50,047 nt of DNA, from the IMG/VR virus record IMGVR_UViG_3300035698_019371, positions 1 through 50,047 of that record; one strand, 5' to 3'. Under the pieces are notes generated by a model. The model did not search any database, had not been told where the DNA came from, and saw nothing but the letters and a program-made list of their open reading frames with translations. Shown here piece after piece: positions 9,326-49,139 of the stretch (positions are counted from its first letter, which is position 1; every line of letters begins with the position of its first letter). This DNA is from a virus. Made by a program: the position numbers and the translations under genes.

Positions 9326-10387
9326 CTACGCACAACCATCTAAGGTTCCACGTTCTGCACTAGCTTCACTTATATTACAACGACCCGATACAGCGATAGT
9401 CGCTTCACCGAGATCGTACTCTAACGACTCGTAACGAAAATCAGTGAATGTAATCATTTCATCTTCATCTGAACCACATGGTACACAATGAAGAATAACC
9501 ATGTCAATAGCATAAGGCTCGCAAAGATCGTCTGAGCTTGATACCCATTCAGATGCAGCCCCGTCTTGCTTTAACGCATCAACAGGGGTAATATCTTCAC
9601 TTGTGCCTGTTGTGATATGCTCATAGACAAATTCTAAGGATACTTCAAGTGGTTGCTCGTCACCTTCCTTAACTGTATCGAGATCGCCCCGATCAAGCAA
9701 ATACTCATACTCCTTAGCTTCTGTCCATGTAATGTTCCCTTCGCCAACTTTTACTTCAATTCGCTGAGAGATAAAAGTTAATACATCAGACTGGGCTGGG
9801 GCTACTGTGCCCCAAGCAGGTTCAAAATCGATATTTGTTGTTGGACTAGGGCCACCTTTAACTGTCTCTGTAACAGTAATAACTTGATCACCACCAGCAA
9901 GATCAACATCAGCGGCTACTAACATCTCGCAATCCAACTCTCCTTCAGCACCAGTGAACGTAATAACCCAATCGGCTGCAGGACCAGGGCCCCCAGTTAC
10001 AGTTACATTTCCAGCACCTATTGTTGGCAAAGCTTCTAAAGCGGCTGAAACAGCAGCATTAGCGGCATTCCATAAAATATTACCTGATACTGAGCCTTCA
10101 TAGTTAAGAGTAAAATTCCCAGACGTTTCAGCGTCATTAATGCCAACAGTTTGTGACTCATCGGTCCCATAACGATCAGTAACGGTATATGTAGTTGTAT
10201 TATTTGCAGTATTAACTGTAAATCGTGCTCCAATTGGCACTAAGTCAACATCAGTTGCGTTCAAATTTATTGTATTAACAGCACAATCAAGGTCGGCTGC
10301 ATTTGGAGTAGCTTCTGCAATTACTCCGTTACCACTCAAGCCGTCTTGAATATAGATAGTGGCGTCACGCAATTCAATACGTGCCAT
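9326..10387 (-). CDS. Major tail tube protein, copy 2
   Basis: A 353-residue protein. It and the upstream 353-residue gene are tandem paralogues, nearly identical over the first ~25 residues (MARIELRDATIYIQDGLSGN) and the last ~160. Residues ~85-165 hold a small beta domain (NFTLNYEG, ALEALPTIGAGNVTVTGGPG, WVITFTGAEG) that also occurs as the repeat unit in the 963-residue protein at 29.8-32.7 kb. The C-terminal part (EYEYLLDRGDLDTVKEGDEQ, SLEFVYEHITTG) fits a tail-tube fold. The location before the chaperones and tape measure supports a tail tube role. The stop is TAG, followed by a terminator hairpin. Confidence 0.75.
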   Translation of the reverse strand: MARIELRDATIYIQDGLSGNGVIAEATPNAADLDCAVNTINLNATDVDLVPIGARFTVNTANNTTTYTVTDRYGTDESQTVGINDAETSGNFTLNYEGSVSGNILWNAANAAVSAALEALPTIGAGNVTVTGGPGPAADWVITFTGAEGELDCEMLVAADVDLAGGDQVITVTETVKGGPSPTTNIDFEPAWGTVAPAQSDVLTFISQRIEVKVGEGNITWTEAKEYEYLLDRGDLDTVKEGDEQPLEVSLEFVYEHITTGTSEDITPVDALKQDGAASEWVSSSDDLCEPYAIDMVILHCVPCGSDEDEMITFTDFRYESLEYDLGEATIAVSGRCNISEASAERGTLDGCA

Positions 10388-10405: not shown

Positions 10406-11467
10406 TTATGCGCAGCCGTCTAAAGTTCCACGTTCTGCACTAGCTTCACTTACGTTACAACGACCAGACACAGCGATAGTTGCTTCACCAAGATCATACT
10501 CTAATGACTCGTACCGGAAATCAGTGAATATAATCCTTTCATCTTCATCTGAACCACACGGTACACAATGGAGAATAATCATATCAATAGCATAAGGCTC
10601 GCAAAGGTCGTCCGAGCTTGATACCCATTCAGATGCATCCCCATCTTGCTTTAGAGCATCGACAGGGGTGATATCTTCACCTGTACCAGTTGTGATATGT
10701 TCATAGACAAATTCTAAGGATACTTCAAGTGGTTGCTCATCACCTTCTTTAACTGTGTCGAGATCACCTCGATCAAGCAAATACTCATACTCCTTAGCCT
10801 CTGTCCATGTAATGTTTCCTTCGCCAACTTTTACTTCAATCCGCTGAGAGGTAAAAGTTAATACATCAGCCTGCGCCGGGGTTTCTGTGCCCCAAACAGG
10901 TTCAAATTCAATATTTGATGTTGGAGTAATACTGCCTTTAACTGTTTCTGTAACAGTAATATTTCCATCGCCACCGGTAAGACTAACGTTAGCGCCTACC
11001 AGTGCATCACAGTCTTTACTGCCTTCATCGCCAGCGAACGTGACAACCCAATCAACATTAGGGCCAGGGCCACCAGTTACAGTTACATTTCCAACACCTA
11101 TCGTTACTAAAGCTTCTAAAGCGGTTGTAACAGCAGCATTAGCAGCATTCCATGCAATATTAGCTGTTACTGAACCTTCATAACTAAGAGTAAAATTTCC
11201 AGCCGTTTCGGCGTCATTCATGCTAACAGTTTGTTGCTCATTAACTCCATAACGACCAGTAACGGTGTATGTAGTTGTGTTATTTGCAGTATTAACTGTA
11301 AATCGTGCTCCAATTGGTACTAAGGCAGTATTAGTCGAATTCAAAACTACTGTATTAATATCACAATCTCCGTCGACTGCAGCCGGAGCAGCTTCTGCAA
11401 TTACTCCGTTGCCACTCAAGCCGTCTTGAATATAGATGGTGGCATCGCGCAATTCAATACGTGCCAT
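10406..11467 (-). CDS. Major tail tube protein, copy 1
   Basis: This is the upstream member of the tandem pair; it is 353 residues and starts at ATG 11467. It differs from copy 2 mainly in residues 25-200, that is, in the inserted beta domain and its flanks. The DNA of the 3' ~480 bases is very similar in both copies, so the duplication is recent or maintained by gene conversion. It is a tail tube candidate by position. Two tube subunits could mix in one tube, or one could be a decorating or alternative subunit. The stop is TAA here and TAG in copy 2. Confidence 0.75.
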   Translation of the reverse strand: MARIELRDATIYIQDGLSGNGVIAEAAPAAVDGDCDINTVVLNSTNTALVPIGARFTVNTANNTTTYTVTGRYGVNEQQTVSMNDAETAGNFTLSYEGSVTANIAWNAANAAVTTALEALVTIGVGNVTVTGGPGPNVDWVVTFAGDEGSKDCDALVGANVSLTGGDGNITVTETVKGSITPTSNIEFEPVWGTETPAQADVLTFTSQRIEVKVGEGNITWTEAKEYEYLLDRGDLDTVKEGDEQPLEVSLEFVYEHITTGTGEDITPVDALKQDGDASEWVSSSDDLCEPYAIDMIILHCVPCGSDEDERIIFTDFRYESLEYDLGEATIAVSGRCNVSEASAERGTLDGCA

Positions 11468-20974: not shown

Positions 20975-21283
20975 CTATGAGTCAATTTCATCTAGTGCTA
21001 AAAATAGTCGGGCTATTCCAAGTGAGGCTAAACTTGCAATTGTTACAACTCCGAACGACACTAAAATAAAGCGTCCTAATGGTATCAAGCCTAATCTCCA
21101 CCACACAACTCCAAACGCAAACCAATGACTCAAACAATATGGACAATGAATTAGTTCTTCCGCCCATCGGCCTAACTTTGACACTTGAGTCCTAAGATAC
21201 CCCATGACATTTGACTTAGAAATTGTCATAGTGATACTTGCAACAGCAAGACCGATCAGTAGCATCTCAAATAATAAAAACAT
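20975..21283 (-). CDS. DUF1360-like membrane protein
   Basis: This 102-residue protein starts at ATG 21283, which overlaps the previous stop. It has an N-terminal membrane segment (FEMLLIGLAVASITMTI), a central CPYCLSHWFAFGVVWW motif and a C-terminal membrane segment (LVSFGVVTIASLASLGIARL). A Cys-x2-Cys inside a CPYC(L)-x-x-W context is the signature of DUF1360, small membrane proteins of unknown role found in bacteria and phages. The gene lies next to a membrane-anchored thioredoxin-like gene, so a thiol-linked partnership is possible. Confidence 0.7.
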   Translation of the reverse strand: MFLLFEMLLIGLAVASITMTISKSNVMGYLRTQVSKLGRWAEELIHCPYCLSHWFAFGVVWWRLGLIPLGRFILVSFGVVTIASLASLGIARLFLALDEIDS

Positions 21284-21735
21284 TAGTAAATATCATAGTC
21301 ATTAGAGTCATCGTTATTTTTCTTCAAAGCTCCCCTAATCCGTGTTTCAATGCCCGCTTTATCTTCAGGATCAAATCCTATAATTCGTTGAACTTCTTCA
21401 TTATTAGTGTAAATAATAGCTGTTGGAAGAAGTGCAATTCTGTCTTCTTTAGCCTTTTTCCTGTTGATCATCATGTTAAGATAAAATACACTAAAACCCT
21501 CTTTCTCCAGTTTTTTGCCAATTGCTTCCATTTGAGGACATTTGACACACCACTCTGCTGTCCAGATAAGAAGATAGTTTGAAGGATAGTCTTCCTTTAC
21601 CATCTGATATTTAACCAATTGATTATCAACATCCTCAGACGCGCTAGGGCGATTAGTCTTGACAGTTGAAAAAGCCACAGCAATAGCAGTAATGGTATAA
21701 ATTGCTACTAATACAGTAATAATTAGTTGTTTCAT
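21283..21735 (-). CDS. Membrane-anchored thioredoxin-like protein
   Basis: A 150-residue protein starting at ATG 21735. Residues 4-24 (LIITVLVAIYTITAIAVAFS) are an uncleaved signal anchor or signal peptide. The thioredoxin fold follows: strand LLIWTAEWCVKC with the redox motif WCVKCP at residues ~61-66, FSVFYLNMM, and a cis-proline loop (IALLPTAIIYTNN), ending EVQRIIGFDPEDKAG. It is probably exported and catalyses disulfide exchange outside the cytoplasm. Its direct upstream neighbour is a secreted papain-like protease with many Cys residues, and its downstream neighbour has a CPYC motif. Confidence 0.85.
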   Translation of the reverse strand: MKQLIITVLVAIYTITAIAVAFSTVKTNRPSASEDVDNQLVKYQMVKEDYPSNYLLIWTAEWCVKCPQMEAIGKKLEKEGFSVFYLNMMINRKKAKEDRIALLPTAIIYTNNEEVQRIIGFDPEDKAGIETRIRGALKKNNDDSNDYDIY

Positions 21736-21741
21736 CGTATA

Positions 21742-23910
21742 TCACCAAATTTGATAGTTTGGAATTTTAACTCGTGGGTACCCGACATAACCGCTCAATG
21801 CGATGCTATCACCTTGCTCCATTGCGTACTCAATGACACTTGCGTCGACCCAGAAACTTCCTTTCGGCTGGCCATGACGGGTAGAGCCTCTAGCCCATCC
21901 TGAGCCCCAACTATTTTGAATTAATGCTCCAGGCCGCCTGTAATTATCATCAATACCAATAATTGCCATGGCATGGTTCCAAGGCCGGCGCGAGCGGCGG
22001 ATAAAACCATCTCTATTACGTCGCGTATAGAAGCCAGTACTACTACACATCGCTACTGGGTAACCATTGGCAACAGCATCTCTACACTCTTCCCAAGATC
22101 GAACAATCGAGCAAGTTTTTACTGGGTGCTCACGGCAAAGAGGCTCAAGATCATCTGGTACACCCTTCTTGCCAAGAATGCGTGCTGTGGTGCCACTATA
22201 TTTAGTATAGTCATACTTACCTAAGTAAGGTTGTCGAAGTAGAACGCCCCACTCTCTAACAAATTCAGATGCCCAAACTCCCATCGAACCATCGCCACTA
22301 ACTTTATTTTTGCCAACTTCAATACGCGACCCTGCGTAAATAATTTCAGTAGCACATTTTGCAACCCACCGTTCCGGCTGTTTACGCATAGCAATTCGTA
22401 CAGCAGTTAGCACATCAATACCAAGTCCGAAAGCATGGCCGACACAATTATGAACAGAATACCCATTTGCTATGAATGAATGATCATTTTCTACATCCAA
22501 ACAATAAACAGTTGTTGCAACTTTAGAGATTCTTGAAATTGATTGAAGCTTACGACTTGCCCCAAAATTTCCCCTCTGCTGTACTGGATAAATTCTATTA
22601 TTTACTCCAGGGTACAGTTTAGCAGTATCTGCAACATTAAAACAAATTGTATAAGCTTGAGCCCTATTCTCTTGTTGATTATTTACTTTTTTTATTACCG
22701 GTTCAAAATTACAATAATTAGCAAGGCGGCCCATACCTATAATTAAGTCACTTGAGACACTTACGCCTGAACATCTAGCACCTCTATTTTTTCTAGCACA
22801 CTTACAATTTTTTCGGCCATGGCAACTTCCATCGCCTTCAAGCCAGCCAAGCAAACATTCTAATTGTATCACTTTTGAGGCTGTTAAAATGTTAATAGGT
22901 ACTTTTTTCGTATAAGTATTGCCAGGTATTAGATGCTTAAAAAACATAGCAACTGCTTTATTTTGGCATCTTACATATTTTACAGTAGGTTTACTTGGTA
23001 CTGAATAAACGTTGCATTTAATGCCAAAAATTTGATGCATCGAGATTGCAATTCTATTAGCAAATTTCTCTTCTGTTGCCCCAAGATTAAAATCAACTTT
23101 GCACCATTGCCCTGGTTGACATTCAGTTCCATTCGCTCTACTGCAACCGCCCTCTGCTAAATAAGCTCCAATTATATAAGCTAAATTAGTGTCCAAATGA
23201 ATGTAACGGTTTACCCATTTTGAACTATTTTTTGCTCGTAACTTATCGTCTCGAATCTCGGCATCAGGACAAATATCCAATAAATCCCATGTCTTTTCTT
23301 TTGCAGGTCCACAGTATTTTTGAACAAAAACCTTATCATCTAGACTAAGAAGGTTGGCAGGTTTCCACTCACCTTCATTTACCCAAATTAAATGATCTGG
23401 TGTACAAACAATATCTTCAATACAACCTTTAGCTTGGAAACGAACCATACTTTTATTAAATGGTTTACGTATAGTTCGAGTAACTTTTTGTGGTACACCT
23501 AAATGACTTAAAACAAACTCACCAACTTTGATTCGTTCAATTTCCCTTCGGCTGCCATTAGCCATAGTCACCATTGTTCCAGCATAAAAACAATCACCAA
23601 TTGCCTGTTGATGTGAAATTAAAGGACCACCAGTAACCTCTTCAAAATACTTGTAAAGTAAAACTATTTTACCCTTGCCGGTGCCTCTAATTGCACCATT
23701 TTGCTGACTCAGAAATGGTTTTCGATTAACTGCTATAAAATTTTCACGCGCAGATAAATCATTGACCCAGCCACACTGTAGCGGTTGTTCTGTATTATCA
23801 TTAATCCCTAAAGGGGCCCCATAGCCAAAGCGGTTAAAATTTAACTGCTTGCTCAATAAGGGTACCCCTGCTGCTGCCAGGATTTGTTTTAACATATCAC
23901 GTCGGTTCAT
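21742..23910 (-). CDS. Papain-family (C1) cysteine protease interrupted by an intein
   Basis: The 722-residue precursor starts at ATG 23910. Residues 1-21 (MNRRDMLKQILAAAGVPLLS) form a twin-arginine-like export signal. The mature ~340-residue extein has a C1 peptidase core. The oxyanion Gln lies in HQQAIGDC, with the catalytic Cys at residue 489, six positions after that Gln once the intein is removed. The catalytic His is in RPWNHAMAIIG, and Asn in LIQNSWGSGW. The intein (residues 107-488) sits exactly before the catalytic Cys, so the protease is inactive until splicing. A secreted protease in a phage might process virion or host surface proteins; its target is unknown. Confidence 0.9.
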   Translation of the reverse strand: MNRRDMLKQILAAAGVPLLSKQLNFNRFGYGAPLGINDNTEQPLQCGWVNDLSARENFIAVNRKPFLSQQNGAIRGTGKGKIVLLYKYFEEVTGGPLISHQQAIGDCFYAGTMVTMANGSRREIERIKVGEFVLSHLGVPQKVTRTIRKPFNKSMVRFQAKGCIEDIVCTPDHLIWVNEGEWKPANLLSLDDKVFVQKYCGPAKEKTWDLLDICPDAEIRDDKLRAKNSSKWVNRYIHLDTNLAYIIGAYLAEGGCSRANGTECQPGQWCKVDFNLGATEEKFANRIAISMHQIFGIKCNVYSVPSKPTVKYVRCQNKAVAMFFKHLIPGNTYTKKVPINILTASKVIQLECLLGWLEGDGSCHGRKNCKCARKNRGARCSGVSVSSDLIIGMGRLANYCNFEPVIKKVNNQQENRAQAYTICFNVADTAKLYPGVNNRIYPVQQRGNFGASRKLQSISRISKVATTVYCLDVENDHSFIANGYSVHNCVGHAFGLGIDVLTAVRIAMRKQPERWVAKCATEIIYAGSRIEVGKNKVSGDGSMGVWASEFVREWGVLLRQPYLGKYDYTKYSGTTARILGKKGVPDDLEPLCREHPVKTCSIVRSWEECRDAVANGYPVAMCSSTGFYTRRNRDGFIRRSRRPWNHAMAIIGIDDNYRRPGALIQNSWGSGWARGSTRHGQPKGSFWVDASVIEYAMEQGDSIALSGYVGYPRVKIPNYQIW
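22447..23592 (-). other. LAGLIDADG-containing intein in the protease gene
   Basis: This 382-residue insertion starts with Cys (CFYAGTMVTMANG) and ends VHN before a Cys. Splicing block B is CTPDHLIWV with the conserved Thr and His. The two dodecapeptide motifs are IIGAYLAEGGC and LLGWLEGDGSC, so the homing endonuclease looks intact, with acidic catalytic residues in both. The C-terminal blocks are VYCLDVENDHSFIANGYSVH and N. The +1 residue is the protease's catalytic Cys, so intein chemistry and protease chemistry share one residue. Confidence 0.93.
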
Positions 23911-23927: not shown

Positions 23928-24824
23928 TTAATTAAACAGTGACGCATAAGTTTGCAAGCTTTTAGCAACTTCTAACCATATAACTCGGTGCTGTTCAGGG
24001 GTAGAAAGTTTACCTTGATTAGCTAATGTCTTCATAGCTGTTTGAAACTCTTTTAATACTGGCAGCCATTTGATCAATGAGTTACCTAATGCGGCTCGAT
24101 TACCGTCCGCAGTAGCTTTAACAATATCATCAACTGTTTGCAAGTTACCTGCTTCAATCTGGTCAGCTATACTCTCAAAACTCATAGCCAACATGTCGGC
24201 CTCATCGTCTGTACACTTGTTAATTGAACACCAGTAAGGTATCCATTGACTTAGATCAGTGTTGCTGGCCGGTTTAGCTATATTAGGATACTCGCCAGGA
24301 CCAATAGGATCATCAGGGTCAACAGAGTCGTCGGGGTTATCAGGGTTGTTAGGGCCGTCAGGTTTAACTGCACCTGTAATAGTTATAGTATGAGTTGCAA
24401 CATCGACTGTGCCGTTATAAGCACATGCTATAATAAAGATATAGTCACCAGACTTACGAGCACTAAATACAGCAAGTTGCCCGTCCTGGTAAGCCTCAAA
24501 ATCCACTGTCTCAGGTATTTTAATCCATTTGAATGATTGTGCAACACTTTTAGATAAGTCAAATCGTATAAGCTCGCCAATTACAGCTTCTTCTGGAGCC
24601 ATAATTATAATTTGAGCAATTTGATCAGACTGTGCGGCGTCATCCGGGTCAGCGGCGCCGCGAATTTGTAATCTGGCCGCTTTTTCTGTTGTGGTTACAG
24701 TTGTGTTTACAGTTGAAGCCTTAGCTGGCTGCGATACTCTCATATAAGAGTTAATTAGCAGGCAAGAACTTACAATGACTGCAAGCACCATCGCGGCGGT
24801 TTGTAGTCTCTTCCAATTCCGCAT
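23928..24824 (-). CDS. Secreted/anchored protein with PKD-like domain
   Basis: This 298-residue protein starts at ATG 24824. Residues 8-27 (TAAMVLAVIVSSCLLINSYM) are a signal peptide or anchor. Residues ~70-150 form an Ig/PKD-like beta domain (IIIMAPEEAVIGELIRFDLS, SGDYIFIIACAYNGT). An Asp/Pro-rich linker (PDGPNNPDNPDDSVDPDDP) leads to a ~110-residue helical C-terminal domain (DDEADMLAMSFESIADQIEA). It lies 17 bases upstream of the secreted protease gene, so the two probably act together outside the cytoplasm or in the virion. The architecture is uncommon in phages. Confidence 0.65.
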   Translation of the reverse strand: MRNWKRLQTAAMVLAVIVSSCLLINSYMRVSQPAKASTVNTTVTTTEKAARLQIRGAADPDDAAQSDQIAQIIIMAPEEAVIGELIRFDLSKSVAQSFKWIKIPETVDFEAYQDGQLAVFSARKSGDYIFIIACAYNGTVDVATHTITITGAVKPDGPNNPDNPDDSVDPDDPIGPGEYPNIAKPASNTDLSQWIPYWCSINKCTDDEADMLAMSFESIADQIEAGNLQTVDDIVKATADGNRAALGNSLIKWLPVLKEFQTAMKTLANQGKLSTPEQHRVIWLEVAKSLQTYASLFN

Positions 24825-32899: not shown

Positions 32900-34015
32900 T
32901 CAAGTTGCCAACGCTCGAAGCAAAATGCCCCGAGCACCATTCACGTCTCTATTAAGACCGTTGATCGTGTTGAATGGACCACGCTCAACGACCATCCCGT
33001 TGCGTGAATCTGTTCGCGATGTCCATGCCTCGCTGCAAGATAGCACGATTTTGCCTCGCTTATAAGCAATCCACGCGAGAAATTGCTTGAAGCGGTAGTG
33101 CCCGAGACCGAGCATAGCGCGAACCGTCTTTGACGAAACTCGGCGTGATGCTTTGGTCACCATGTTTGAGACTTCAAACGTAGGGAGAAGAATCACGTCG
33201 TAATGCTTTGTGAGAAAATCGGCAGCCCGCTTGTGCAAGTCATTGATGAGGTCCTGTACTTTATTACGTATCGAAAAGATTCGCTTTTGAAAGTACCTCC
33301 ATCTGTCTTTATGGCACCGCTTCCACATCTTCGGAACGCGGTTAAGAAACTTTTGCCGTTTGCTATAAAGCTTGTCGAGTCGCATAAGCATCGGTCGAAT
33401 CTGTTTCGCAAATCCCTGGCCGATCTTCACACAATCTGCCGGAGAAAACGCGGTGATAAACGTTCTGACACCCGGATCGCAAGCGACAATTGCCGTGGCT
33501 TGACTCTCGCTTTTAACGATTGCTACTTCGATCTTACATATCAGAAACCACCTACCATTTTCCCAAACTACATGTGCCATCTTATTGATGGCCGCTGCCG
33601 GAAGCCCTTCAGTGATATGACACTGAAGGAAACTTGGAAACGGTCCACCACGGGCAAGTCGCTGCACAACAAACGATTGCTTCGTAGACTTCCGCGTCCG
33701 AAACGAAAAATCGCATTTTTCGCCTCGTTTTCGTTTACGAATCACCGCTTGACGTGTTAAGTACGCTTCATTTACTGCTTCGTCAAGCAATACTGAGGGG
33801 ACATTAGGATACTCCTCTCGAACTTGTTTGCGAATACTCGCACGAAACGTGGTTTGATTTTCAACTAAGTCACCCTGCTTCCACTTTCTGAATGCTTCGA
33901 TGCAGAAATTGTAGGCGCGACGCGCAGCCCGAAGACACGCAAACCACTCATCTCTATTCTTTGGGTAGATGCGAATCTTTCGCGAGACTTCTCTTGTTTG
34001 CGGACCTCTTTCCAT
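32900..34015 (-). CDS. tnpB: TnpB RNA-guided nuclease (IS607-associated)
   Basis: The start is ATG 34015 (MERGPQTREVSRKIRIYPKN), within the end of tnpA; the longer frame to 34450 is antisense-like overlap with tnpA. The product is 371 residues. The N-terminal helix-turn region (KNRDEWFACLRAARRAYNFC) and WED/REC parts precede a RuvC fold with all three acidic residues: Asp in ACDPGVRTFI, Glu in LPTFEVSNM and Asp in NRDVNGARGI. The usual zinc-finger Cys residues between RuvC-II and -III are absent (TSRTDSRNG and GPFNTINGL replace the CxxC pairs). It is probably an active but zinc-less TnpB. Confidence 0.88.
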   Translation of the reverse strand: MERGPQTREVSRKIRIYPKNRDEWFACLRAARRAYNFCIEAFRKWKQGDLVENQTTFRASIRKQVREEYPNVPSVLLDEAVNEAYLTRQAVIRKRKRGEKCDFSFRTRKSTKQSFVVQRLARGGPFPSFLQCHITEGLPAAAINKMAHVVWENGRWFLICKIEVAIVKSESQATAIVACDPGVRTFITAFSPADCVKIGQGFAKQIRPMLMRLDKLYSKRQKFLNRVPKMWKRCHKDRWRYFQKRIFSIRNKVQDLINDLHKRAADFLTKHYDVILLPTFEVSNMVTKASRRVSSKTVRAMLGLGHYRFKQFLAWIAYKRGKIVLSCSEAWTSRTDSRNGMVVERGPFNTINGLNRDVNGARGILLRALAT

Positions 34016-34520
34016 AGTAGGAATTGCAAAAGGAAGTGATGAAGCCGATAAGCAATTCCGTGCTGAACTGTTCGTATTCTTCACTCTCCGAGCTAAGTGA
34101 GACAACGGACCCATCGCTGCGCTCGAAGAAGCTTTCGACGAATCGGAATCCAACTCGCGACAATCTGTCACGGTTGGACACCACAACATTGATTGCAACT
34201 CCCGACAGCGCTCGTTCCAATAGGGTAACAAATCCCCTTCGTTTGAAATTGAAACCAGAGCCGATGTCGGTAATGACTTCAATCTTCGGGAACGCTTTGT
34301 TGATTTGCTCCCTTTGGGTGTCAAGGGAAGACAATTGCTTTCGGGAGGAGACACGGGCGTATCCAACATATTCTGCGCAGTAGGCGGCAACGCCAATGCG
34401 AAATTGCTTGCCTTTAGTTCGCTTGATATATTTGAATTCATCATTAGCAATCCACCTACGAATCGTTTGTGGCGTCACGCCATATAGGCTCGCCACTTGT
34501 CCAGTAGTCTTCCACTTCAC
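33954..34520 (-). CDS. tnpA: IS607 serine recombinase/transposase
   Basis: A 188-residue protein starting at ATG 34520. Residues 1-45 are a MerR-like winged HTH (TGQVASLYGVTPQTIRRWIA). The serine-recombinase catalytic domain follows, with nucleophile Ser in YARVSSRKQ, SLDTQREQI, DIGSGFNFKRRGF and catalytic Arg residues in SNRDRLSRVGF. This N-terminal HTH plus C-terminal catalytic order is specific to IS607. A promoter lies ~50 bases upstream. Confidence 0.92.
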   Translation of the reverse strand: MKWKTTGQVASLYGVTPQTIRRWIANDEFKYIKRTKGKQFRIGVAAYCAEYVGYARVSSRKQLSSLDTQREQINKAFPKIEVITDIGSGFNFKRRGFVTLLERALSGVAINVVVSNRDRLSRVGFRFVESFFERSDGSVVSLSSESEEYEQFSTELLIGFITSFCNSYYGKRSANKRSLAKDSHLPKE

Positions 34521-35126: not shown

Positions 35127-36704
35127 TCACGACAAACCAAACCGGCTGTTACACTGAGGGCAGTTCTCATCACCACAATGACCATTTTCAGCGAAAGGCT
35201 GAACTGCACTAGGGCGGTTTGAAGGCGGATAACGGTTAGACCACTGGCGCATTTCATCGTCAGAAAGCCCTGTCTCCTCAGAATCTTCACAGTTTACGTC
35301 TTCGCCGGACCAGAGCGCAGCAAGCCTATGGCCATGTCGCCCAGCAACTCTACGCCAATAATCAAGCAAATCAGAGTCGCCGATTAATTCGACAAGGCCG
35401 CGCCAATTGGTCCGAGTAATACCACCGATGACCTTATCAATATCGTCAAAAGTTAAACTTTTGACAGCATCAACAAAGCGAGCATGTAAGGCAACCCAGT
35501 TGCAAATCTCCCGAGAGTTAAGACTGCCCCCATATAAGCGAATCTCAATACTGCCGTGACACAGATAAGCCCGCCAATTGACAAACTCAAAACGATCACG
35601 AGCCTCGACAAAATCCTCAATATGCTCGGCACATCGAATATCGTCAGGTCTATACTGAGGGGAGCCACACATTGAATTGTCAGCACGTATATTACTAACA
35701 AATTTCTTCCAAAGCGGGTAACTCTTGCGATAGGCATAAGCTACTTGAAGTATCTCAACGCTTGAAAGGTCACGGGCGTCAATATGGACATGAAGCCCAC
35801 AACTCCGATCAACGGTCCAACGCATAACTTTAGCTTCTTCGCATATTTTCCTAATTTCAGCAAAACCTTCATCACCCTGCAAAATTGGAGAAATGAATTC
35901 ACGCCCAGGAGTGGAACATTCATAAACACACCCCCATTCCGTGATACCTTGCAAACTCCTATGATCATTACAACACTCTGTCTCTATTTCAACGCCATAA
36001 CAACGCTTGGAACCGACACGATCAAACGTGCTAGCACAACCACTCCAGGTCTGAACTTTCCAAATCTCTGCGTGACCGAAACACCTCTCACAAAAAGGAT
36101 CACCATCCCAGCCACGCATATCGCAGCGATTATATGATCCGCCACAATTAGAGCATCGAAAATAATGCTGCTCAAAACATTCTTCACAATACTTATTGTC
36201 GCCTCGCGGAGCGTTGAAACACGAATTGAGAGAAAACACCTCGCCGCAAGTAGCACAATTGAACCAGTACAAATCCCAACAGGCGGTACAATACTCTTCA
36301 TCAGAATTCGTAGGATGGGTACGAATCTCAGCAGCCGCTCGAAAGGTACGACGACCGCAATGTGTACAGATGGAAAAAATAGCATGGTCACAACTACTGC
36401 ATCTCTGCTTATTATCGGGGCCAAGCCTAAGATCATTGCACTCGCCCCAACTACTATACCGAAGAAATTTACCACAATCTATACACTCGGCGTAAAGATC
36501 ATCGATGCATCTCTTACACATTGAGCCTTCAGGTGTTGAGCGCATAGAGCTAGGCGACAACTCGCGTCCACAGTCGCCAGCACAAAGAGCCGAGCCGCCG
36601 GACAAAGGGGGGAGAGGGTCGCCATTAAATAGACTTGGCTGTGTGTCTCCCGTAGCCGCTTGCCACGACTCATGATAATAAGTGGTTGGTGGAATAAACG
36701 GCAC
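35127..36704 (-). CDS. Amidoligase-superfamily protein with long zinc-knuckle N terminus
   Basis: A 525-residue protein from GTG 36704 (AGGGG upstream). Residues 41-210 hold at least eight Cys-x2-3-Cys knuckles (CAGDC, CKRC, CIDC, CSSC, CTHC, CTAC, CATC, CEEC, CSNC, CERC), that is, 4-5 treble-clef or LIM-like zinc modules. The catalytic domain follows with GVEIE at 237-241, GREFISPILQGDEG at ~267-280, CGLHVHIDARD at ~302-312, FVNWRAYLCHGSIEIRLYGG at ~380-400 and a helical end. This order fits the Amidoligase_2 (COOH-NH2 ligase) family, which uses ATP to form amide bonds. A further CGDENCPQC pair ends the protein. The substrate is unknown. It is followed by TGA and a terminator. Confidence 0.8.
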   Translation of the reverse strand: MPFIPPTTYYHESWQAATGDTQPSLFNGDPLPPLSGGSALCAGDCGRELSPSSMRSTPEGSMCKRCIDDLYAECIDCGKFLRYSSWGECNDLRLGPDNKQRCSSCDHAIFSICTHCGRRTFRAAAEIRTHPTNSDEEYCTACWDLYWFNCATCGEVFSLNSCFNAPRGDNKYCEECFEQHYFRCSNCGGSYNRCDMRGWDGDPFCERCFGHAEIWKVQTWSGCASTFDRVGSKRCYGVEIETECCNDHRSLQGITEWGCVYECSTPGREFISPILQGDEGFAEIRKICEEAKVMRWTVDRSCGLHVHIDARDLSSVEILQVAYAYRKSYPLWKKFVSNIRADNSMCGSPQYRPDDIRCAEHIEDFVEARDRFEFVNWRAYLCHGSIEIRLYGGSLNSREICNWVALHARFVDAVKSLTFDDIDKVIGGITRTNWRGLVELIGDSDLLDYWRRVAGRHGHRLAALWSGEDVNCEDSEETGLSDDEMRQWSNRYPPSNRPSAVQPFAENGHCGDENCPQCNSRFGLS

Positions 36705-36781: not shown

Positions 36782-37801
36782 TTAACCGGCATAACGCTCG
36801 GCAGTCTCATCAACCGTAGGAAGGGTTAACAAAGCTCCCGAACCGTCAACCTCAGTGTACCCATGAGCATCAGCATACTCATCAGTAGGAGAAATATCAT
36901 GCTCACTGGCATCAGTATACTCTGCCCATGCTTGTTGCCATTCAACATCATAATCCCGGGGAGGCAAATCTTCTCCGGCGGCATCCTTATTCTTGAAATA
37001 CGGACTAACATCTTGACCAGTGGTCCAAGTGCCGCCTTCTTTATGGTAGGCAGAACTGCCTCTTCCGTGGCCGTAAGTAGCCTCAGTGTTCCATGATGTG
37101 TGACCGCACCGGTAGTTTGTGTACCAGGGGCTATGTGCTGCCGATACAAATGGCTTGAGCGGGGAATCGGCATCGAGGGAATTGTCGACAGTACCATCAG
37201 GGCTGATCCTGATTACTTGACCGTCTTTCAGCACTTTACTGCCACCACCGGTACAGCTATCAAGATGCAACCAGCTTGACGAGTAATAAAGTACACCGTC
37301 GATAATGTCGTAAGCAAGTTCGCCACTATGGCAGAGCAAGTAGAAATATTCTCCGTCAAACCAAGTTAATCCCCAGTAGCCGGCAATATCCTCAAGACCT
37401 TTTTGATAATTACCCCGCGCTTTGTTAAGCGCCCAAAACAGGTGCTCAGAATCAACTTGAAACTTTGCAGGGGCTTGGCAAATCCCATTGTGGGAACCAA
37501 TGATTCGTCCGTAACGGAACGGGTGGGCGTTGCGACGGTTCACCCTGCCGCGAGTAGCAAAACGAGTATGACCGGCTACAAACCAGCTTGAGCTATGCGA
37601 GTATTGAAGCCACGCCTTCATACGCTTTTTGCGTAGAACGTCGGCCGGATCGCCCGCGCCTTTTGTCATTTTCCCCGATGAATCAAAGAAGCCTAGTGAG
37701 TCTGTACCACGCTCCCGATTTGCCCACGTTAGCGCCCGGATAATTCCTATATCCCAGCTTTCCCCAGGTTGAACTACAACAGCGCCGAAAATTCCACACA
37801 A
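36782..37801 (-). CDS. Class II glutamine amidotransferase (stand-alone)
   Basis: The 339-residue protein is read from TTG 37801 (GGAGG 9 bases upstream) so that, after removal of Met, Cys2 is the N-terminal nucleophile (MCGIFGAVV). Other GATase II motifs follow: RERGTDSLGFF, GHTRFATRGRVNRRNAHPF, GSHNGIC and VDSEHLFWAL. The C-terminal ~110 residues (GHGRGSSAYHKEGGTW onward) are low in hydrophobics and have no known domain. No synthetase domain is attached, so the enzyme should hydrolyse Gln to Glu plus ammonia, which could feed the amidoligases encoded on both sides. It has its own promoter at 37913-37940. Confidence 0.9.
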   Translation of the reverse strand: MCGIFGAVVVQPGESWDIGIIRALTWANRERGTDSLGFFDSSGKMTKGAGDPADVLRKKRMKAWLQYSHSSSWFVAGHTRFATRGRVNRRNAHPFRYGRIIGSHNGICQAPAKFQVDSEHLFWALNKARGNYQKGLEDIAGYWGLTWFDGEYFYLLCHSGELAYDIIDGVLYYSSSWLHLDSCTGGGSKVLKDGQVIRISPDGTVDNSLDADSPLKPFVSAAHSPWYTNYRCGHTSWNTEATYGHGRGSSAYHKEGGTWTTGQDVSPYFKNKDAAGEDLPPRDYDVEWQQAWAEYTDASEHDISPTDEYADAHGYTEVDGSGALLTLPTVDETAERYAG

Positions 37802-40505: not shown

Positions 40506-41579
40506 CTATTCATTCAATAGTGATTCCAGGGCCCGGGCAAGAGCTTGCTCTGCCGTACCTACGCTCGGCCGCCTCATACGCCGCTGATTAATTCTTGTTA
40601 ATCGACGAATCAGCCAATCACTAAGATTGTTATTACCAATAATTCTGATGAAGGCTGAAATATTGTGCTCAATGCTTTCGCCAAACAAACAGTCAAGCTC
40701 ATCAAAATTGAGATTTTTTACATAATCCACAAAACGAGTATGGATCATTATCCAGTTACAAACAGTACGAGTGGCAATTGTTCCTTCAAGCAGACGAATC
40801 TCAAAAGTCTTGAAACGGTTGTAAGCGCTTAAATTGGCGTAGTCGTAACGTTGCTGCCTGGCAAAGCTATTAAAAGGTGCCCCTGTCTCACAACATCTAC
40901 GAATATCGTTACCCGTATACCCCGGTCGGTGGCAGTACGAACAGCGTCGTCGCCGGGGGCTTACACAATGAGACCAAAAAGAATAAGTCCTAGCGTAGGC
41001 ATAAGCAGTATGGTACAACTCTTGGTCAGATTCGTCACGCATATCCAAATGGATATGACAACCACAACCGCTATCAACAGTCCAACCCCGACTCCTTGCG
41101 CCAGTTAAAAACTCCCTAATCTCAGCAAGACCCTCATCGCCGTAAAGAACCGGTGAAGGAAATTCTCTACCGGAAATGGAACCATCGTATTTACAGCCAA
41201 AGACAGTATTGCCGTGTAGCTCTTCAAAACCCCTACAAGTGGAAGTTTCAATTTCAACGCCATACTTGCGCCTGGAGCCGATGCGCTGATAAGTTGCAAA
41301 AGACGCGCCAAACGGGGTGAGGGGCCAAACGGTGTCCCCCCGTCGAGTGGCATAACAAAAGGGGCACAGAGGTCGCTGGGGATCGTTGTAATATTGCGGG
41401 TGAGGTACATCAGAGCGGGCCAACGGGCTAGGGATGAGAAGCATCCCACAATCAGCGCAAAGTTGGTAAGAGCGGGTAAAACATTGATTACAAATACCGT
41501 CAAGAACCGACATATCCTTACGTTGGGTACTTTCGTGGCAAATGTCACATTGAACATAGTCAAGCATGCATGCAGGCAT
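40506..41579 (-). CDS. Amidoligase-superfamily protein, short zinc N terminus
   Basis: A 357-residue protein from ATG 41579 (MPACMLDYVQCDICHES; GAGGG upstream). Zinc pairs are CDIC, CNQC, CADC and CPFC. Catalytic motifs are RKYGVEIETSTC, GREFPSPVLYGDEG, CGCHIHLDMRDESD, DYANLSAYNRFKTFEIRLLE and GTIATRTVCNWI. A basic/Ala C terminus (AEQALARALESLLNE) is longer than in its paralogues. The stop is TAG, followed in frame by 50 protein-like codons. Confidence 0.8.
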   Translation of the reverse strand: MPACMLDYVQCDICHESTQRKDMSVLDGICNQCFTRSYQLCADCGMLLIPSPLARSDVPHPQYYNDPQRPLCPFCYATRRGDTVWPLTPFGASFATYQRIGSRRKYGVEIETSTCRGFEELHGNTVFGCKYDGSISGREFPSPVLYGDEGLAEIREFLTGARSRGWTVDSGCGCHIHLDMRDESDQELYHTAYAYARTYSFWSHCVSPRRRRCSYCHRPGYTGNDIRRCCETGAPFNSFARQQRYDYANLSAYNRFKTFEIRLLEGTIATRTVCNWIMIHTRFVDYVKNLNFDELDCLFGESIEHNISAFIRIIGNNNLSDWLIRRLTRINQRRMRRPSVGTAEQALARALESLLNE

Positions 41580-47789: not shown

Positions 47790-49139
47790 TCAAACTGCGC
47801 AAAGCCCAGTAAGGTAACCATGATTACGGCTCTTGGCCTTCTCGCTGTAGTAGGTTGAAAGATTAGAATCCTTCCAAACCTCTTTGGTGATTAAAGCAAA
47901 CATACCGTTACAATCTAAACCTCTGAGCGCTCTTTTGGCGCCTTCGTAACCTAATTTAGCGGCCCAGTCGGCAAAACGGATATGAGCCTTTACCCAATTA
48001 ATGATCTCAGTATCGTCACATACCCCCTCATACAGACGAATCTCAATAGTGGAATGATCACGATAAGCATAAAGATTGCACCAGTTATACCGCGAGTTAC
48101 AACGAGCCCAGCTAGAAAAGCTATGACTAGCCTGTATCGCACGGGCAATATCAATGCATGACCATCGAATCTCATGGCTGTAAGTACCGGTATGCCTACG
48201 GCAATCAACAAAACTCATCCAAACCTCTTGAGTCCTGCGATAGGCATAAGCGATAGCGTACAAAGAATCATCAGATTCGTTACGCATGTCAAGATGCAGA
48301 TGATAGCCAGCACTGTTGCCAGCCCGCCACTTATAACGCTTTGCAATTTTCCCCCATTCCCGGATAGCAGCTAAACCCTCATCCCCACTGAGGATATCAG
48401 AATAGAATTCTTTCCCCGAGACGGTGCAATCATCTTTTACACCCCAAGCTGGCGTGCCTCTAAGACTGGTGTAGTTGGTACAGACATCAGTTTCTAACTC
48501 TATACCAAAACAACGAGCAGAACCGATCTCAGCGGTATGAACGGAAGTATTGCGAAAACCACCCGGGGGGAAATTACTCCCACCGCCCGGATACTCCTCC
48601 TGACAATCTTCACAGCACATTCCTTGCGAACATAGCATCAGATGGCAGTTTAGCTCTGCCTCACCACATACAGTACAACGACCATAGTGTAGGTTATAAC
48701 AAATCTGGCAAACATAGTCGCCTGCCACAGTCCGGATAGACTCATAAGCATAGGTGGGCTGATCACACTCTACGCACCATTGTGCCAGGTCAAATCCACA
48801 ATCTGGGCACAGTATATCACCTGCGACACTACGCGGCCTGCGACCGTCGCTAATGATGCGCTGTACCACAACCCGCTCGTTACTCCAAAAAGGCAGGTTA
48901 CAATTATCACATATACTAGAAGTGTTAAAAGCACACTCTTCGCACCACTGGTTACCATCTAAGGTTTCCACAAGATCAATGCATTCGACCACCTGCCCAC
49001 AAGCTGAACAAATAGCTAAATCATCATCTTCTAAACAATTGTAACAGAGTATTTCACCATAACGAGATGTATAAACCCCATTAGTAATGGAACGCCTACA
49101 CCCGCTACACGTGAAATTAGTCACCGCTCTTGGAGGCAT
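47790..49139 (-). CDS. Amidoligase-superfamily protein with long zinc-knuckle N terminus
   Basis: A 449-residue protein from ATG 49139, with a weak ribosome site. The zinc region (CSGC, CYNC, CSAC, CEEC, CDNC, CPDC, CVEC, CQIC, CTVC, CEDC) matches the 46.3 kb paralogue in spacing. Catalytic motifs are RCFGIELETDVC, GKEFYSDILSGDEG, GYHLHLDMRNESDD, WCNLYAYRDHSTIEIRLYEG and VCDDTEIINWVKAH. It is first of the amidoligase genes in transcription order in this window. The stop is TGA. Confidence 0.78.
   Translation of the reverse strand: MPPRAVTNFTCSGCRRSITNGVYTSRYGEILCYNCLEDDDLAICSACGQVVECIDLVETLDGNQWCEECAFNTSSICDNCNLPFWSNERVVVQRIISDGRRPRSVAGDILCPDCGFDLAQWCVECDQPTYAYESIRTVAGDYVCQICYNLHYGRCTVCGEAELNCHLMLCSQGMCCEDCQEEYPGGGSNFPPGGFRNTSVHTAEIGSARCFGIELETDVCTNYTSLRGTPAWGVKDDCTVSGKEFYSDILSGDEGLAAIREWGKIAKRYKWRAGNSAGYHLHLDMRNESDDSLYAIAYAYRRTQEVWMSFVDCRRHTGTYSHEIRWSCIDIARAIQASHSFSSWARCNSRYNWCNLYAYRDHSTIEIRLYEGVCDDTEIINWVKAHIRFADWAAKLGYEGAKRALRGLDCNGMFALITKEVWKDSNLSTYYSEKAKSRNHGYLTGLCAV

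Follow-up and report, generated by a model that had tools for sequence, protein, structure and literature searches.

A class-1 intein at the catalytic cysteine of a papain-family protease in uncultured tailed phages

An interrupted protease gene in a tailed-phage record

The window, that is, the whole 50,047-base stretch of the virus record analyzed here, carries on its minus strand genes for capsid, portal, terminase, tail-tube and tape-measure proteins. The same strand encodes a protease precursor in a 722-codon open frame, with the following host-protein (extein) features:

21742-23910, minus strand: precursor gene (722 aa), a Tat-type leader and a papain-family (C1A, xylellain-type) protease with an intein inserted into it
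23812-23910, minus strand: twin-arginine-like leader MNRRDMLKQILAAAGVPLLSKQLNFNRFGYGAP, with the RRxxLK motif conserved across the leader-bearing clade
23593-23910, minus strand: N-extein, 106 aa, with the C-terminal end ...HQQAIGD and containing the oxyanion-hole Gln
23605-23607, minus strand: codon of the oxyanion-hole Gln (Q102), within the N-extein
21742-22446, minus strand: C-extein with the catalytic Cys, His and Asn, the latter followed by SWG
22444-22446, minus strand: codon of the catalytic Cys, which starts the C-extein and is the +1 residue
21973-21975, minus strand: codon of the catalytic His, in the C-extein
21913-21915, minus strand: codon of the catalytic Asn, with SWG next, in the C-extein

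The Pfam Peptidase_C1 model matches the window precursor with an E-value of 0.012 and 16.1 bits, below its cutoff of 20.7, and reaches a best E-value of 6.7e-4 among 89 relatives; this sub-cutoff score is that of a divergent member and reflects the score threshold, not a biological feature. The fold was modeled on an intein-free homolog (L002) that is 76% identical to the window over the C-extein. The resulting model (pLDDT 92.3, pTM 0.89) places Cys107 at the start of a long central helix, and its top Foldseek match is xylellain (E=2.4e-11). Alignment with VIA-align to xylellain (PDB 3ois) yields a Z of 23.2 (242 aligned residues, rmsd 3.2), while papain and cathepsin zymogens score between Z 18 and 21. 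In a profile alignment, the regions around Cys, His and Asn in the protease family line up with those of 3ois. Across the 89 intein-free homologs aligned for conservation counts, Gln102, Cys107 and His266 (L002 numbering) are present in every sequence, Asn286 in 85, and SWG is invariant; the window exteins retain every invariant family residue. Judged from sequence and predicted fold, the extein of the window ORF is a papain-family C1A protease of the xylellain type. Alignments to C1 zymogens start at model residue 34, ahead of the mature domain, which suggests that the N-terminal segment behind the leader is a pro-region.

The window leader, MNRRDMLKQILAAAG, fits RRxxLK. The wider pattern M[N/D/H/K]RR[D/E]xLK is conserved in one clade of the family, several members of which have canonical M[D/N]RRDFLK leaders. 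TAT models match relatives with E-values of 3.3e-4 (Pfam TAT_signal) and 0.0089, the window's own leader scoring below threshold.

Anatomy of the intein and its junction with the active site

The insertion separates the oxyanion-hole Gln from the catalytic Cys and has the following features:

22447-23592, minus strand: class-1 intein, 382 aa, from Cys1 to His-Asn, with exact boundaries and splicing motifs
23590-23592, minus strand: codon of intein Cys1, the first intein residue
23392-23403, minus strand: intein block B TPDH (T64-P-D-H67)
23146-23184, minus strand: LAGLIDADG motif 1, LAYIIGAYLAEGG, of the putative homing endonuclease domain (motif reading)
22828-22854, minus strand: LAGLIDADG motif 2, LLGWLEGDG (motif reading)
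22444-22452, minus strand: C-terminal splice junction His-Asn/Cys, in which the Cys encoded at 22444-22446 is the +1 nucleophile of splicing as well as the nucleophile of the C1 protease

The defining residues of a class-1 intein are all present (C1, T64-P-D-H67, H381-N382 and the +1 Cys), the C-terminal end VYCLDVENDHSFIANGYSVHN being followed directly by the +1 Cys. The insertion is matched by Pfam Intein_splicing (37 bits, cutoff 35.8) and by NCBIfam intein_Cterm (E=3.7e-6), two LAGLIDADG motifs that include acidic residues lie between its blocks B and F, and its GC content is 35%, versus 41% and 47% in the exteins. Excision of the 382 residues in silico yields QQAIGDCVGHAFG, a stretch that intein-free homologs encode uninterrupted; since these homologs encode the excised junction continuously, chance does not account for the boundaries. 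A Hedgehog/BIL-type domain was ruled out on account of the canonical His-Asn/Cys end and the homing endonuclease domain, and a sequencing or frame artifact on account of the open frames and of further full-length inteins at the same site.

An earlier note on this DNA had placed an intein at 22447-23592, exactly at the nucleophile of a secreted papain-like protease with a twin-arginine-like leader, and had proposed that one Cys serves first in splicing and then in catalysis. The boundaries hold to the residue, the +1 Cys is the invariant C1 Cys found in an uninterrupted GD-C context in intein-free relatives, and the fold, the catalytic residues and the clade-wide leader motif all agree with that reading. 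The double use of the Cys is borne out at the level of residue identity, with splicing and proteolysis as the predicted activities. An Asp at -1 favors N-terminal cleavage in some inteins; the window precursor has such an Asp, fixed by the extein, so splicing of its intein may be slow or incomplete.

Intein-free alleles and evidence of mobility

Used as a query against IMG/VR, the C-extein retrieved 13 relatives with 35-76% identity. Eleven are uninterrupted at the insertion site, reading ...Q-x-IGDC[VT]... (APDC in one), while the other two (L004 and L012) share the window's intein, inserted at the same bond. Wider scans, some of them seeded with inteins, raised the count of distinct family members to about 140, 12 of which harbor a total of 14 inteins at four positions; this proportion should not be read as a frequency, because intein-seeded scans enrich for interrupted alleles. 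Intein-free alleles, which the earlier note had proposed looking for in related phages, were thus found to be continuous across the junction both in the 11 aligned relatives and in the larger alignment of 89. The majority of relatives, including the closest in the tree, are intein-free and show the same gene order.

The family has no PHROG match, and neither a leader-bearing nor a leaderless member used as query gave a tblastn match among 50,697 records of cultured phages. Its single bacterial contig (L092, labelled Anaerolinea) is possibly a phage contig. In two members (L065:4875-6022 and L088:3460-4472) the protease frame is split into two overlapping ORFs, attributable to a frameshift, a sequencing error or decay, and several of the large phage contigs L078-L084 encode a second, longer C1-like paralog (453-592 aa) a few kb away.

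Inteins are patchily distributed on the protease tree: the window's nearest neighbor (L008) has an empty site, and so do L002 and L003, which lie beside the intein-bearing L004. Intein identity exceeds extein identity in comparisons of the window with L004 (76 v 67%) and L094 (73 v 59%), and synonymous divergence is about 1-1.5 for the intein in window pairs against saturation in the exteins, which suggests that the intein moved after the host genes had diverged; as extein synonymous sites are saturated and the intein differs in base composition, this argument for lateral transfer is suggestive only. The dN/dS ratio is well below 1 in both the endonuclease domain, where lateral homing would predict it, and the splicing region. 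In L012 the motif-1 acid is replaced by Lys, and the Cys-site insertion of L095 is a mini-intein of 158 aa without an endonuclease; by their motif content, the intact window copy, the L012 substitution and the L095 loss are expected stages of homing decay.

Inteins beside all three catalytic residues

The main new point is that inteins lie beside all three catalytic residues of this protease family. Insertions at GD^C are found in seven members (the window, L004, L012, L094, L095, L098 and L099), with a near-identical case on a partial contig, L097, kept outside this count. One intein lies directly behind the catalytic His (WPH^C, L068) and another two residues further on (WAHQM^C, L085), and five lie three residues past the catalytic Asn (NSWG^S; L012, L029, L094, L173 and L176). 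L012 and L094 are therefore double-intein proteases. The His- and Asn-adjacent inteins map as follows:

L068:5616-6728 and L085:2583-3689: His-adjacent inteins
L012:6553-7563, L029:5853-6878, L094:4696-5709 and L176:3001-4008: Asn-adjacent inteins

Cys-site and Asn-site inteins belong to separate families, and the pair of inteins near the His share 25% identity with each other. All four insertion positions fall within three residues of a catalytic residue (P=8e-5 under uniform placement; P=0.004 with placement restricted to the 20% most conserved boundaries). The Cys-site boundary itself is at the 99.7th conservation percentile, its Cys being invariant in the 89 homologs. In sister proteins the inteins adjoin His or Asn of the active site, so the family as a whole has no common scheme of reusing the Cys. 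Unrelated phage proteins, L177, L178, L182 and L189 among them, likewise harbor relatives of the Asn-site intein.

The conserved neighborhood and the thioredoxin-like gene

The protease gene belongs to a conserved module, ordered as 298-aa protein, protease, thioredoxin-like protein, DUF1360 protein, two small genes, TerL and portal, and this neighborhood is identical with or without the intein. In the window, its members adjoining the protease are:

23928-24824, minus strand: conserved upstream partner, 298 aa, with an N-terminal hydrophobic segment and without a Pfam or PHROG match
21283-21735, minus strand: thioredoxin-like CxxC protein (WCVKC) with an N-terminal hydrophobic anchor; Pfam Thioredoxin, 28 bits (cutoff 23.5)
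20975-21283, minus strand: DUF1360 protein, a member of the conserved module

In most family loci, be they leader-bearing or leaderless, the gene for the 298-aa protein directly precedes the protease gene, and its product is a candidate substrate or partner of the protease. The thioredoxin-like gene was counted in those distinct loci that extend 2 kb or more downstream. Of the 39 loci whose protease has an RR leader, 38 contain it (33 of the 34 intein-free and all 5 intein-bearing ones), as do 22 of the 67 loci lacking such a leader, so that, with phylogeny ignored, Fisher tests associate it with the leader (p=5.7e-12) and not with the intein (p=0.51). Some loci scored as leaderless are truncated (L097 and L173), which weakens the leader contrast and does not create it. 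A thioredoxin specific to the intein was ruled out, as the gene follows 33 of the 34 intein-free leader-bearing proteases. Most thioredoxin-like proteins of family loci have a hydrophobic N-terminal segment, and a simpler reading is that the protein possibly folds or maintains an exported cysteine protease in the envelope.

A probable homing element at an indispensable residue

The reading that we consider very probable is that a homing intein came to occupy the best-conserved boundary of a putatively Tat-exported protease of the xylellain type in tailed phages. The class-1 LAGLIDADG intein would home into this boundary of the protease gene and splice in the cytoplasm through an N-S shift at Cys1, transfer to the +1 Cys, cyclization of the Asn and a final S-N shift. 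Splicing would rejoin the Gln-x4-Cys motif, the freed thiol of the +1 Cys would become the protease nucleophile, and the folded protease would then be exported through the Tat route. The Tat route carries folded proteins, and hence cytoplasmic splicing ahead of export would be the natural order of events. One Cys would come to have two uses because homing elements persist at sites where mutation or imprecise deletion kills the enzyme, and because this site offers a +1 Cys.

Under this reading, the precursor must, from its sequence, be proteolytically dead, as a by-product of the insertion and not as a conserved control device. An AlphaFold model of the 722-aa precursor, built with 13 sequences, reached a pLDDT of 33 and was discarded, so masking of the active site in the precursor is argued from topology. 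Protease activity would depend obligatorily on splicing; no evidence of regulated splicing emerged from the analysis, and the splicing rate might have a regulatory effect.

The earlier note had also proposed a safety lock, possibly under redox control given the thioredoxin-like gene that follows. In such a scheme, slow or signal-dependent splicing would silence a harmful protease until late infection or until reducing or oxidizing conditions arise. A working Cys-Gln pair is indeed impossible in the precursor, the redox gene following the protease is real, and redox- or zinc-sensitive conditional splicing is known in other inteins (PMC6195587, PMC7360933). Mini-intein L095 moreover persists without an endonuclease, which implies that something besides homing retains it for now. 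We nevertheless regard a conditional lock as unlikely, given that most alleles are intein-free in an unchanged neighborhood, that the thioredoxin-like gene goes with the leader and not with the intein, that unrelated inteins sit beside His or Asn in sister proteins, and that the aligned C1 pro-region, a zymogen-type segment, may already silence the protease. In other inteins, a redox trap is formed with an N-extein Cys at -3; no N-extein Cys was found at this position in the window precursor, which also speaks against redox control. The broader proposition that this exported phage protease family has been repeatedly gated by splicing, and not by its propeptide, before Tat export, with inteins selected for delayed activation, is less likely still. 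Least likely of all, and very improbable, is a decaying or splicing-defective intein in a dead or dispensable gene: the -1 Asp could favor N-terminal cleavage and L012 has lost a LAGLIDADG acid, but the window copy keeps all splicing residues, the open 722-codon frame and every invariant extein residue, and dN/dS in the splicing region is low.

Relation to known systems

Other inteins sit near catalytic Cys or Ser residues. The insertion of inteins into active sites is well known in general (PMC5784728, PMC7765530), and mycobacteriophage inteins occupy active centers such as that of the terminase TerL, a protein invaded at five different sites (Kelley et al. 2016, PMC5050341). The TerL inteins resemble those described here in their phage host, their mobile, homing-endonuclease nature, their independent insertions at invariant motifs and their patchy empty alleles. 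TerL, however, is a DNA-handling enzyme, whereas the host protein here is a putatively exported papain-family protease, in which the host's catalytic nucleophile doubles as the +1 residue at one site and insertions have reached all three catalytic residues. Xylellain-type peptidases have been transferred to Caudoviricetes (PMC10380794). The present family shares with xylellain (16% identity) the papain fold, the Q-x-IG[D/S]-C motif, the catalytic His and the NSW motif, but constitutes a separate family, encoded by uncultured phages; one of its clades has a Tat-type leader, and some members carry inteins. Mycobacterial DnaB inteins (PMC6195587, PMC7360933) embody the shared idea that splicing rate gates a host protein, and have catalytic cysteines in the intein; in contrast, a conserved sensor was not seen here, with no junction-adjacent N-extein Cys and a redox gene that is independent of the intein. 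Literature searches of incomplete coverage turned up neither a papain-family protease nor a Tat substrate reported to contain an intein.

The family thus offers an unusually clean case of inteins persisting where the host cannot mutate, with a +1 Cys that is also the catalytic nucleophile, and it brings together independent invasions at the other two catalytic residues, double-intein proteases, a mini-intein and empty alleles. Because protease activity could serve as a readout of splicing rate, selfish homing and a useful switch can be directly set against each other by experiment in this family.

Additional features of the window

Four ORFs on the minus strand (35127-36704, 40506-41579, 46328-47665 and 47790-49139) match phage amidoligase families and are accompanied by a glutamine-fructose-6-phosphate aminotransferase-like ORF (36782-37801); by these family matches, the five ORFs make up an expanded, putative amide-bond-forming module. 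Two tandem minus-strand ORFs of equal length (353 aa; 9326-10387 and 10406-11467) match tail sheath/major tail protein families and are likely the product of a duplication. A transposase-family ORF (32900-34450, minus strand; phrog_506, E 2.7e-28) also lies within this phage record.
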